Source: Betaproteobacteria bacterium (GTDB taxonomy: Bacteria; Pseudomonadota; Gammaproteobacteria; Burkholderiales; Casimicrobiaceae). Taken from it: 37,344 nt of DNA. Location: the NCBI GenBank assembly GCA_018971195.1, contig JAGXBK010000015.1, positions 1-37,344 of the forward strand, in the 5' to 3' direction. The stretch's first letter is position 1. The number at the start of each line of letters is the position of its first letter. This document shows, one piece after another, positions 24,560 through 29,573 of this stretch. Below the pieces are notes generated by a model. The model was not told the DNA's origin and ran no database searches. It worked only from the letters and a program-made list of their open reading frames with translations. The position numbers were made by a program, and so were the translations under genes.

Positions 24560-25240
24560 ATGGCAGACACCCTCGGCCCAGCGGCCCCCTACCCGGTCGC
24601 ATACGACGTCGCGCCCCAGCTGCACGGCCGCAACCGGCTTACCGTCCTGTTCAGGCTCTTCCTGGCGATCCCGCAGCTGATCCTGGTCGGCGGGCCGGGC
24701 CTCGTGCTGGGCGGGGGACTGGCATGGCGATTCCCGGCCAACGGGGATTGGACCTGGGGCGTCCACTGGGGCGGTGGCGGCGTCCTCGGCGCGGTCGCCT
24801 TCGTGATGGCGATCATCGCGTGGTTCGCGATCCTCGTTGCGAACACCCATCCGCGCGGACTCTGGGACTTCGCGTGCTTCTACATGTCCTGGCGCGCACG
24901 CGCCATCGCCTACATCGCGCTCCTGCGCGATGAATACCCGCCGTTCGGGGATGGCGCCTACCCGGCACACTTTGCGGTCAGCCATCCGGACGGGCCGCGC
25001 AACAAGTGGTCGGTGGCGCTGCGGATCGTCTACGTGATCCCACAGGCGATCGTGCTCTTCTTTCTCGGCATCGCCTGGTGCATCACCGCGGTGATCGCCT
25101 GGTTCGCGATCCTGTTCACCGGCTCCTATCCCGAGCCGCTGTACCGATTCGCGGTCGGGTATCTTCGCTGGTCGCTGCGCGTCGAGTCGTACCTGCTGCT
25201 GCTGCGCGACGAGTACCCGCCGTTCTCGTTCGAGGCGTAG
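24560..25240 (+). CDS. DUF4389 membrane protein with internal duplication
   Basis: A 226-residue inner membrane protein of the DUF4389 family, function unknown. Hydrophobic segments lie at about 28-52, 72-95 and 140-168. The two halves are related: each has LFRLFLAIPQ-like or LRIVYVIPQ sequence, then AIIAWFAILVANTHPRGLWDF or AVIAWFAILFTGSYPEPLYRF, then LLRDEYPPF. This suggests an old tandem duplication. It is convergent with aceB and 52 nt after the ACT gene. Confidence 0.88.
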   Translation: MADTLGPAAPYPVAYDVAPQLHGRNRLTVLFRLFLAIPQLILVGGPGLVLGGGLAWRFPANGDWTWGVHWGGGGVLGAVAFVMAIIAWFAILVANTHPRGLWDFACFYMSWRARAIAYIALLRDEYPPFGDGAYPAHFAVSHPDGPRNKWSVALRIVYVIPQAIVLFFLGIAWCITAVIAWFAILFTGSYPEPLYRFAVGYLRWSLRVESYLLLLRDEYPPFSFEA

Positions 25241-25266
25241 CGCGCGGCCGCACGCCCCCCGGTCAC

Positions 25267-26868
<1,602 letters not shown>

Positions 26869-26907
26869 CACGATCCTTGTTTCCAAAGCGACTTGGGCAA
26901 ATGGGGC

Positions 26908-26913
26908 ATTTTA
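26908..26913 (-). promoter_or_regulatory. Candidate -10 element for aceB
   Basis: TAAAAT on the minus strand, 40 nt before the aceB start, in an AT-richer patch. No convincing -35 at 16-18 nt. Confidence 0.35.
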
Positions 26914-27003
26914 GCGCATGGCGCTGCGGCGCCTGGCGGGCCGCAGCAGCGCTCGCGTCCTGGCGCGCCGAGCACATCCGAGCCGCGCGGCCCGGCCTTG
27001 CGG

Positions 27004-28545
27004 CTACGCGGCAAGCTGGGGATTCAGCCGCTCGACGTTGGTATGCAGGCGGTTCAGCGCGTTGACGTAGGCCTTGGCCGAAGCGACGATGATGTCGGTG
27101 TCGGCACCGTTGCCGTTGACGATCCGCCCGTCGCGCTCGAGGCGCACCGTCACCTCGCCCTGCGCATCGGTGCCGCCGGTGATCGCGTTGACCGAATAGA
27201 GCAGCAGGCTGGCGCTCGATCCCGCCATGCGCTCGATCGCCTTGAACACCGCGTCGACCGGGCCGTCGCCGTCGGTCTCGGCGACGACCTCGCTGTCGCC
27301 GATGTTCAGCATGACGCGCGCATGCGGCACGGTTCCGGTTTCCGAGGTCACCTTGAGCGCGGCAAGCTTGTAGTACTCGTGTGCAGGGATGATGCCCTCT
27401 TCGGACACCAGGGCGTGGAGATCCTCGTCGAACACCTCGCCCTTCTTGTCGGCGAGCTCCTTGAATCGCGCGAATGCGACGTTGACCGCGTCGTCGCCGG
27501 GCAGATCGATCCCCAGTTCGGTCAGGCGCGTCTTGAATGCGTTGCGGCCGGAGAGCTTGCCGAGGACGAGCTTGTTCGCGCCCCAGCCCACGTCTTCGGC
27601 ACGCATGATCTCGTAGGTCTCGCGATGCTTGAGCACGCCGTCCTGGTGGATGCCGGACTCGTGCGCGAACGCGTTGGCGCCGACGATCGCCTTGTTCGGC
27701 TGCACCGCAAAGCCGGTGATCCCCGACACCAGCTTCGAAGCCGCGACGATTTGCGTCGTGTCGATGCGCGTCGTGCAGGGGAACACGTCCTTGCGCGTGC
27801 GCACGGCCATCACGATCTCCTCGAGCGAGGCATTGCCGGCGCGCTCGCCCAGGCCGTTCACCGTGCATTCGACCTGGCGCGCGCCGTTCATGACCGCCGC
27901 GAGCGAATTGGCCACCGCGACACCGAGGTCGTTGTGGCAGTGCACCGACCACACCGCTTTGTCGGAGTTGGGCACGCGCTCGCGCAACGAGCTGATCAAG
28001 GCGCCGAACTGCCAGGGCATCGTGTAGCCGACGGTGTCGGGGATGTTGACGGTGGTCGCGCCTGCGGCGATGGTGGCCTCGAGCAGCCTGCACAGGAAGT
28101 CGGGTTCCGACCGCCCCGCGTCCTCCGGCGAGAACTCGACGTTGTCGGTGTATCGGCGCGCCCACCCGACGGCCTTGACCGCCTGCTCGAGCACCTGCTC
28201 GGGCGTCATCCGCAGCTTCATCTGCATGTGGATCGGGGAGCTGGCGATGAACGTGTGGATGCGCATCGCTTTCGCGGGCTTCAGGGCCTCGCCGGCGCGG
28301 CGGATGTCGTTCTCGTTGGCGCGCGCCAGTCCGCAGACCGTGCTGTCGTGAATCGCCCTCGCGATGTCCTGCACCGCCTCGAAGTCACCGTTCGACGACG
28401 CCGGGAACCCCGCTTCGATGACGTCGACGCGCAGCCGCTCGAGCTGGCGCGCGATGCGCGTCTTCTCTTCCCTGGTCATCGAGGCGCCCGGGCTCTGCTC
28501 GCCGTCGCGCAACGTGGTGTCGAAAATGATCAGATGGTCGGACAT
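27004..28545 (-). CDS. leuA: 2-isopropylmalate synthase
   Basis: LeuA condenses acetyl-CoA and 2-oxoisovalerate, the first committed step to leucine. The 513-residue protein has the N-terminal [20 protein letters not shown], the metal-site [17 protein letters not shown] and [17 protein letters not shown], and the C-terminal LeuA regulatory domain that binds leucine. Upstream on the same strand are pssA, psd and the ilv genes, a conserved betaproteobacterial cluster. A leader peptide rich in leucine and two hairpins lie between pssA and leuA, so leucine-dependent attenuation is expected in addition to feedback inhibition. Confidence 0.98.
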
Positions 28546-28549
28546 CGGA

Positions 28550-28596
28550 ATCTCCGCGGGAGATGGATAGGCTTGAGCCGCCCTGGATCTGGCGGC
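28550..28596 (-). promoter_or_regulatory. Two hairpins in the leuA leader, one over the Shine-Dalgarno
   Basis: GCCGCC/GGCGGC (28577-28582 with 28591-28596, 8-nt loop) lies just after the leader peptide. ATCTCC/GGAGAT (28550-28555 with 28559-28564, 3-nt loop) pairs the leuA ribosome site GGAGA, 4 nt from the ATG. No T run follows either, which argues for control of translation, or Rho, rather than an intrinsic terminator. Confidence 0.55.
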
Positions 28597-28627
28597 GCGG
28601 GCAATGCTCGAAGCGAGGGGGGTGTAT

Positions 28628-28753
28628 TTATCTGCGCGCGGGGCGCAGCAGGAGCAGCAGGCCGGCCGGCAGGGGCGCCGATCCGGACAGGGACGTCCGG
28701 GCGCGAATTGCCGTGAAGCGGGCCGTGAAGGAGGTTGCGCTGCTCATGACCAT
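28628..28753 (-). CDS. Leucine-rich leader peptide of leuA
   Basis: A 41-codon frame in the pssA-leuA gap on the leuA strand, ending 82 nt before leuA. It starts ATG at 28753 with TAGG 5 nt upstream; an in-frame ATG at 28747 is an alternative. Seven of 41 residues are leucine, and residues 32-36 (28660-28646) are five Leu codons in a row (CTG CTG CTC CTG CTG), followed by RPARR and TAA. This is the expected design of an attenuation leader: scarce charged leucyl-tRNA stalls the ribosome at the run. It is too short to be found by ordinary gene calling. Function is inferred from position and composition. Confidence 0.75.
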
Positions 28754-28799
28754 TGAAGCCTAACCGAAACATCCGGCAGGCGCAAGCGGGGCGAGGGGC

Positions 28800-29573
28800 T
28801 CAGTGCGGCCCGCGGGCCCGCTGGCGACGCTCACGCAACAGCTGCCACGCCGAGACCACGTAGCCGGACATCGCGTAGGCGACGAAGCTCGCGAACAGCA
28901 CCAGCGGGGGCTGGTACACCAGCAACGCAAGCAGCAGCACGATCAGGAGGAGCACCACGAAGGAGACGCTCTTCTTCAGGTTGATGGTCTTGAAGCTGTA
29001 GTAGCGCAGGTTGCTGACCATGGTCAGCCCGGCGAACAGCGTCGTCGCGAACGCGACCCAGCGCAGCGCGTCGGGGTCGTAGCCCAGGTCGTCGACGACC
29101 CAGACCAGCCCCGCGACCACCGCGGCCGCCGACGGGCTCGGCAGGCCCTGGAACCAGCGCTTGTCAGCGACCTCGAGCAGGGTGTTGAAGCGAGCGAGCC
29201 GCAGCGCGGCGCCTGCGACATAGACGAACGCGGCGACCCAGCCGAGCTTGCCCAGGTCGCGCAGCGCCCATTCGTACATCACCAGCGCCGGGGCCGCGCC
29301 GAAGCTCACCATGTCGGCGAGGCTGTCGAACTCGGCGCCAAACGCGCTCTGCGTGCGCGTCATCCGCGCGACCCGGCCATCGAGGCCGTCGAGCACCATC
29401 GCGACGAAGATCGCGACCGCCGCGTTCTCGTAGTTGACGTTCATCGCCTGCACGATCGCGTAGAAGCCGGCGAACAGGGCCGCAGCGGTGAAGAGGTTCG
29501 GCAGCAGGTAGATTCCGCGCCGCCTTACGCGATTCTTGAGGACGACGCGCTCGTGCAGGTAGTCGTCGTGCAT
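28800..29573 (-). CDS. pssA: CDP-diacylglycerol-serine O-phosphatidyltransferase
   Basis: PssA makes phosphatidylserine from CDP-diacylglycerol and serine in the inner membrane. The 257-residue protein has the CDP-alcohol phosphotransferase signature DGRVARMTRTQSAFGAEFDS-LAD, with the Asp residues of DG(x2)AR(x8)G(x3)D(x3)D all present. Multiple hydrophobic segments follow. The ATG at 29573 is 1 nt after the psd stop, and the longer frame upstream overlaps psd and lacks homology. Psd, encoded just before it, uses its product. Confidence 0.96.
   Translation of the reverse strand: MHDDYLHERVVLKNRVRRRGIYLLPNLFTAAALFAGFYAIVQAMNVNYENAAVAIFVAMVLDGLDGRVARMTRTQSAFGAEFDSLADMVSFGAAPALVMYEWALRDLGKLGWVAAFVYVAGAALRLARFNTLLEVADKRWFQGLPSPSAAAVVAGLVWVVDDLGYDPDALRWVAFATTLFAGLTMVSNLRYYSFKTINLKKSVSFVVLLLIVLLLALLVYQPPLVLFASFVAYAMSGYVVSAWQLLRERRQRARGPH

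Follow-up and report, generated by a model that had tools for sequence, protein, structure and literature searches.

The enterobacterial leu attenuator (leuL; Rfam Leu_leader) consists of a short open reading frame (ORF) upstream of leuA, whose stop is closely preceded by a run of Leu codons. In tnaC, the Rho site begins at the leader stop, a stalled ribosome masks this site, and free tryptophan is sensed by arrest at the stop codon. The trpL leader of Sinorhizobium meliloti reportedly has a leaderless start, tryptophan codons and a classical terminator.

Systems that depart from the enterobacterial design are described as well. According to PMC1262725, the actinobacterial LEU element lies before leuA, has a leader ORF with a Leu run and no terminator, pairs the Leu codons with the Shine-Dalgarno (SD) sequence of leuA in its base stem, and forms a pseudoknot. 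Translational control via the leader has been proposed for this element. The same paper suggests Rho-dependent control for terminator-less mycobacterial cysteine leaders, and names Escherichia coli tnaC as a Rho-dependent case. Leaderless short polycysteine ORFs of mycobacteria (Canestrari 2020) are described in PMC13236596 as effecting translation attenuation of a biosynthesis operon; S. meliloti trpL (PMC7298713) is an amino-acid leader ORF in a proteobacterium.

For betaproteobacterial leuA, no report of a leader was found in searches that covered mainly open-access literature, and the element is therefore only putatively new. Rfam returned no match in the window (the whole stretch of 37,344 nucleotides analyzed here) at gathering scores, in positions 28400-28900 up to an E value of 5, or in 20 relatives up to an E value of 0.1. 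Here we describe a short frame upstream of leuA in this stretch that is very probably a leucine-codon leader controlling the leu operon.

A leucine-run frame upstream of leuA

The leader and its gene lie on the minus strand of the window:
27004-28545, minus strand: leuA, 2-isopropylmalate synthase
28628-28753, minus strand: leader frame of 41 codons as given in the preliminary description, from the ORF list
28628-28747, minus strand: leader ORF of 39 codons with the likelier start ATGAGC, from the comparison of starts with relatives
28646-28660, minus strand: five Leu codons CTG CTG CTC CTG CTG, the proposed regulatory run (coordinates checked; conserved across leaders)

The preliminary description of this stretch had reported a 41-codon frame from 28753 to 28628, with its stop 82 nt from leuA, and five consecutive Leu codons (28660-28646) near that stop. 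Both are confirmed; five codons follow the Leu run before the stop. The frame stands, but its first ATG probably does not: the second ATG, at 28747, is the likelier start and the earlier one is probably 6 nt too early, because the ATGAGC start is common to several relatives (L004, L030, L031, L005, L233, L235 and L236) and L004 has no in-frame ATG upstream at the position of the earlier start. The leader thus probably starts at 28747, which gives 39 codons. The fold of the window leader RNA is unremarkable against shuffles (z -1.13 over 281 nt and -0.84 over 106 nt); the argument is built on comparison with relatives.

On the opposite strand, an open frame of 1236 aa (25006-28716, plus strand) runs antisense to leuA and its neighbor, and further long plus-strand frames mirror genes. 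These frames are probably spurious products of GC-rich DNA.

Occurrence of the leader in relatives

LeuA was used as the query to collect upstream regions from 30 loci, ranging from genus to order. A further 80 regions were the best 80 of 588 relatives, whose titles are mostly betaproteobacterial with two Gammaproteobacteria, and another 88 came from 300 genomes sampled across the order, of which 252 have a window-type leuA. After removal of L154 as a duplicate, the set holds 197 distinct regions and is a sample, not a census. A leader was called where the final 10 codons of a frame included at least 3 Leu, the 24 nt past its stop held no more than 5 G, a hairpin spanned the stop and a start codon lay in frame.

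This rule is satisfied in 119 of the 197 leuA upstream regions, mostly betaproteobacterial (19/30, 39/80, 23/28 and 38/59 by source). The controls gave 27 hits among 985 dinucleotide shuffles and 6 among 197 reverse strands. One of the 119, L029, is false by eye. The preliminary description had named, as support for the leader, a short frame with a kept Leu run and an otherwise drifting sequence in related pssA-leuA gaps, and this is the arrangement found in these 119 regions. It had also held that gaps of the same gene order lacking any Leu-rich frame would count against the leader, and such gaps exist in part. The rule fails in 78 of the 197 regions, at least 14 of which show a leader by eye (L020, L028, L046, L057, L067, L071, L078, L089, L094, L108, L115, L158, L174 and L194). 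Several Dechloromonas loci are without a leader, with pssA running almost directly into leuA, and no leader was seen in more distant loci such as L021-L025 and L027.

A pattern for the C-terminal motif of the peptide matched in 63 of 110 upstream regions, where the matches in L045 and L110 are by chance. Removal of these two and addition of six leaders recognized by eye gave 67 leaders, 62 of them within length limits. In L106 and L108, on contigs titled Gammaproteobacteria, the leader ends in LLLR-L-LP* and has a different hairpin over the stop. Judged from these comparisons, the leader and its link to leucine synthesis are well supported.

One leader ahead of two leuA types

In two close relatives, L003 and L006, the leader is apparently absent ahead of the window-type leuA. 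Both have a second, long-form leuA directly upstream of the window-type gene, and the leader precedes this long form (L231 and L232; the L232 leader ends in GLLLLRLARR*). With the long-form leuA as the query, the leader was found in 26 of 30 loci, including 14 of the 15 from the same genus; the remaining one of these, L247, starts within the gene at a contig end, and the leader is missing in three other long-form loci (L255, L259 and L262). As the leader stands ahead of two leuA types, the element goes with the leucine operon and not with one leuA sequence. The expectation of a kept Leu run in related gaps fits this second type too, and leaders in 119/197 and 26/30 regions lend support, at the level of sequence, to the earlier reading of a leucine attenuator whose mechanism perhaps differs from the enterobacterial one.

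Many genomes of the window's genus (L231, L232; L233-L254) carry the long-form leuA, of about 570 aa, instead of the window-type gene or in tandem ahead of it. The enzyme gene has apparently been replaced behind an unchanged leader: the leader keeps its place while the gene behind it changes type.

Promoter spacing and the start of the leader

The region ahead of the leader start had been taken for a weak ribosome site. It is more likely the -10 element of a promoter:
28757-28785, minus strand: promoter with -35 TTGCGC (28785-28780), a 17-nt spacer and -10 TAGGCT (28762-28757)

The window hexamer TAGGCT has only a 3/6 match to TATAAT and lies 9 nt ahead of ATGAGC (28747); the same arrangement of TAGGCT, 9 nt and ATGAGC recurs in L233, L235 and L236. 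Among the 119 leaders, 115 have a -10-like hexamer (at least 4/6) 6-10 nt ahead of an in-frame start, 76 of them TATATT and 26 TATAGT. The distance from the -10 to the start is 6-7 nt in 90 of the 115 and 8-10 nt in 25, and the base preceding the start is C in 72% of them. An SD-like motif ahead of the leader start was found in none of these 115 loci, compared with 102 of 115 ahead of leuA. Starts lying 4-10 nt behind TATANT are in frame with the Leu-run stop, and open to it, in 113 of 113 cases, a result not fully independent of the leader rule, which already required some in-frame start. With this spacing the transcript should begin at the ATG or right beside it, which would make the leader ORF leaderless: we infer transcription from the ATG or from within a few nucleotides of it. 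The window transcript probably has a 5' leader of a few nucleotides ahead of the ATG at 28747.

A hairpin over the leader stop

Leu codons and hairpins were compared in 145 leaders, made up of the 119 found by rule and the 26 ahead of the long-form leuA; hairpin and low G were preselected in 119 of the 145. Counted back from the last Leu codon, the three preceding codons are Leu in 68%, 83% and 46% of these leaders, and all six synonymous codons (CTG, CTC, CTT, CTA, TTG and TTA) are in use. Two hairpins are considered in what follows:
28632-28648, minus strand: hairpin P1, CTGCGC-cccgc-GCGCAG, from the last Leu codon to the codons before the stop, supported by compensatory variants and RNAalifold
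28577-28596, minus strand: hairpin P2, GCCGCC-agatccag-GGCGGC, without a T run

P1 in the leaders is mostly GCGC-N5-GCGC and sits at the leader stop. Around the stop, the RNA is more stably folded than its shuffles (z -1.61, sem 0.09, n=116), in a set partly selected for the hairpin. A permissive scan for P1 finds it in all 145 leaders, yet also in 604 of 1450 shuffles. P1 was rejected as a signal unique in the DNA, the bare pattern occurring 72 times in the genome versus 58 for a backward control; only the position of the P1-like pattern is special, not the pattern itself.

The variants of P1 are more telling. In L241, a congener with a long-form leuA and a single genome, the hairpin reads CTGTGC-cccgc-GCACAG: both Arg codons have become Cys and His codons while the pairs are intact. 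Other paired variants are GCCC/GGGC in five loci, TGCT/AGCA in three and GCGT/ACGC in L177, and L108 has, by eye, a CTGCCC/GGGCAG form. In L014 and L173 the stop falls inside the P1 loop, so that the peptide tail is lost and the hairpin retained. RNAalifold on 31 leaders of the window's family (including L262, which has no leader) gives P1 as the only consensus helix, and no P2. Because of the paired changes, and because the hairpin is kept where the tail is lost, P1 looks conserved as an RNA structure rather than as a peptide motif.

The C-rich tract behind the stop

Directly past the stop the leader RNA changes in composition:
28603-28627, minus strand: G-poor, C-rich tract, the proposed Rho-binding site, recognized by composition and pairing

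In the window, the first 13 nt of this tract are without G, and the 78 nt past the stop contain 33 C and 18 G. The 62 leaders used for tract composition were picked by peptide pattern or by eye, with no G criterion; in these, G accounts for 3%, 4% and 3% of the bases at positions 1-5, 6-10 and 11-15 past the stop, and C for 31%, 53% and 50%. Over 78 nt past the stop, the median C/G ratio is 1.54 versus 1.07 further upstream, in a set partly selected for low G. Compared with composition-matched shuffles (sem about 0.1, n=116), the tract pairs less with the N-terminal part of the leader (z +0.53), with the Leu codons (+0.61), with P1 (+0.96) and with the P2 region (+0.79); it is apparently maintained in single-stranded form. 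At the end of the tract, in 28603-28627 (minus strand) and in relatives, lies a semi-conserved box near CAATTCGAG; ACAATTCG occurs within one mismatch in 41 of 146 sequences (which include L262, without a leader) versus 3 in shuffles.

The tract was also sought behind frames in other biosynthetic operons. In 9 of 30 relatives (L271, L274, L280, L281, L283, L284, L285, L290 and L291), short W-rich frames lie upstream of trpE, with 120-190 nt between their end and the trpE match, as in trp attenuators; they have 3-9 G in the next 24 nt and no G-poor tract, which argues that the tract is not general to leaders in these relatives. Ahead of ilvI, no leader was found in 30 loci under a rule of at least 7 I, L or V in the last 14 codons. 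H-rich frames before hisG, in 5 of 30 loci, look like chance readings.

Proposed mechanism

Comparison of the relatives establishes an ORF with Leu codons that is linked to two leuA types, its distance from the promoter and its lack of an SD, the hairpins P1 and P2, and the unpaired tract. Upon these we build the proposal of a near-leaderless leucine attenuator that would be Rho-dependent, with the tract as the Rho-binding site; its base composition and its scarce pairing would suit such a role. We put the probability of this explanation as a whole at about 0.55; the Rho step, taken by itself, we hold to be slightly favored.

In this proposal transcription would start at the leader ATG or within a few nucleotides of it, and the leader would be translated without a Shine-Dalgarno sequence. 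When leucyl-tRNA is ample, the ribosome would pass through the Leu codons, open P1 and be released at the stop. With the ribosome gone, the bare C-rich tract would be open to Rho, and transcription would end before leuA or early in it. When leucyl-tRNA is scarce, the ribosome would stall within the Leu codons, at the base of P1; adjoining the tract and trailing RNA polymerase, it would bar Rho, and leuA would be transcribed. P1 may in addition act as a pause hairpin that lets the ribosome catch up. P1 and the 5' edge of the tract are the parts whose state the leader ribosome can set directly; P2 lies at a greater distance.

A rho gene is present. Because stalling of a ribosome normally favors Rho polarity and less often prevents it, either occlusion of the site or ribosome-polymerase coupling must be assumed. 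We infer the exact transcript start, the stalled ribosome, the binding of Rho and which way the response runs.

Alternative explanations

The downstream hairpin gives a place to an intrinsic terminator, and in that account P2, either as it stands or, in GC-rich lineages, followed by a poor T run, would terminate transcription while a ribosome stalled on the Leu codons would permit an antiterminator. P2 lies about 30 nt past the leader stop, and in relatives its region is more stably folded than shuffles are (z -1.54, sem 0.11); a weak excess of P1 pairing with that region (z -0.38) might represent the antiterminator. Terminator-like sites are in real excess, found in 17 of 119 relatives versus 26 of 595 shuffles. 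Five of the 17 are P1 with a T-rich tract, and twelve are a downstream hairpin with a T-rich tail (L010, L018, L033, L040, L112, L114, L116, L117, L121, L126, L136 and L162). This excess suggests that some lineages may use intrinsic termination. Against it as the general account, the other 102 of the 119 loci are without such a site, and in the window itself the absence of a T-run terminator, already remarked in the preliminary description, holds: the three terminator-like sites in 28400-29000 are all on the plus strand inside leuA, with none on the minus strand. The tract, moreover, shuns pairing with the P2 region, and P2, to judge from footprint size, would lie beyond the reach of a ribosome positioned at the Leu codons or at the stop codon. 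We regard intrinsic-terminator attenuation as unlikely. Somewhat less likely still is translational attenuation, in which the position of the ribosome on the leader would govern access to the ribosome site of leuA. No terminator is needed for it, and the window has a suitable local structure:
28550-28564, minus strand: local hairpin ATCTCC-cgc-GGAGAT around the leuA ribosome site (GGAG, 28555-28552)

By eye this hairpin is also present in L004, and its absence from the other close relatives compared speaks against a general role; lineage-specific translational control is possible. Pairing of the SD region is in slight excess with the N-terminal part of the leader (z -0.38) and marginal at most with the Leu codons (z -0.21, sem 0.10, n=116). 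These values, along with that between the N-terminal part and the Leu codons (z -0.48) and that between P1 and the P2 region, are weak excesses, so alternative folds are possible. P1 shows no excess of pairing with the SD (z -0.06), and sequestration of the SD by the tract was rejected, as pairing is not above shuffles (z +0.61 in 62 leaders; +0.19 in 116). A peptide that is functional or arrests the ribosome through a conserved LLR-x-A-R end would account for the wide occurrence of the C-terminal motif (the 63 of 110 regions, two by chance). Yet the tail alters with paired changes in P1 (LLLLCPAHS in L241; LLLPPRG[HR] in L140, L179 and L199), the two loci with a stop in the P1 loop lose the tail and keep the hairpin, and the N-terminal part drifts, all of which makes such a peptide very improbable. 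That the frame is a chance one with no role could be argued from GC-rich DNA, which yields many open frames, and from the ordinary fold of the window; conservation far above shuffles and across two leuA types refutes it, and we give it next to no weight.

Returning to the Rho-dependent attenuator, we see about even odds that it constitutes an unreported betaproteobacterial leucine element, in which the supply of leucyl-tRNA would set whether the ribosome blocks or admits Rho, with neither alternative folds nor an intrinsic terminator. If true, it would add to leucine synthesis, in a major class of bacteria, a control element that is widespread and apparently without annotation, and would suggest that amino-acid attenuation is possible without a Shine-Dalgarno sequence and without an intrinsic terminator. 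With one ORF, one hairpin and one tract, it would also be a compact test case for the control of Rho by a stalled ribosome.

Comparison with known systems

The element resembles the enterobacterial leu leader in being a short ORF with a Leu run near its stop, upstream of leuA. It differs from that leader in lacking a leader SD, an Rfam match and clear antiterminator pairing and, in the window, a T-run terminator. With the actinobacterial LEU element (PMC1262725), it shares the Leu-run leader ORF before leuA and the lack of a terminator; unlike that element, it has only marginal pairing between the Leu codons and the SD, and a conserved hairpin over the leader stop. The nearest analogue in start design is found in the mycobacterial polycysteine ORFs (PMC13236596), which are leaderless short ORFs with a run of cognate codons, whereas they concern cysteine, belong to another phylum and are described there as translation attenuation. 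Like the trpL leader of S. meliloti, the present one is a proteobacterial amino-acid leader ORF that would start at or near the transcript start; trpL differs in its tryptophan codons and, reportedly, its classical terminator. The likeness to tnaC lies in the proposed Rho site, which starts at the leader stop and which a stalled ribosome would mask. Where tnaC responds to free tryptophan, however, the signal here would be a lack of leucyl-tRNA at the codons ahead of the stop.
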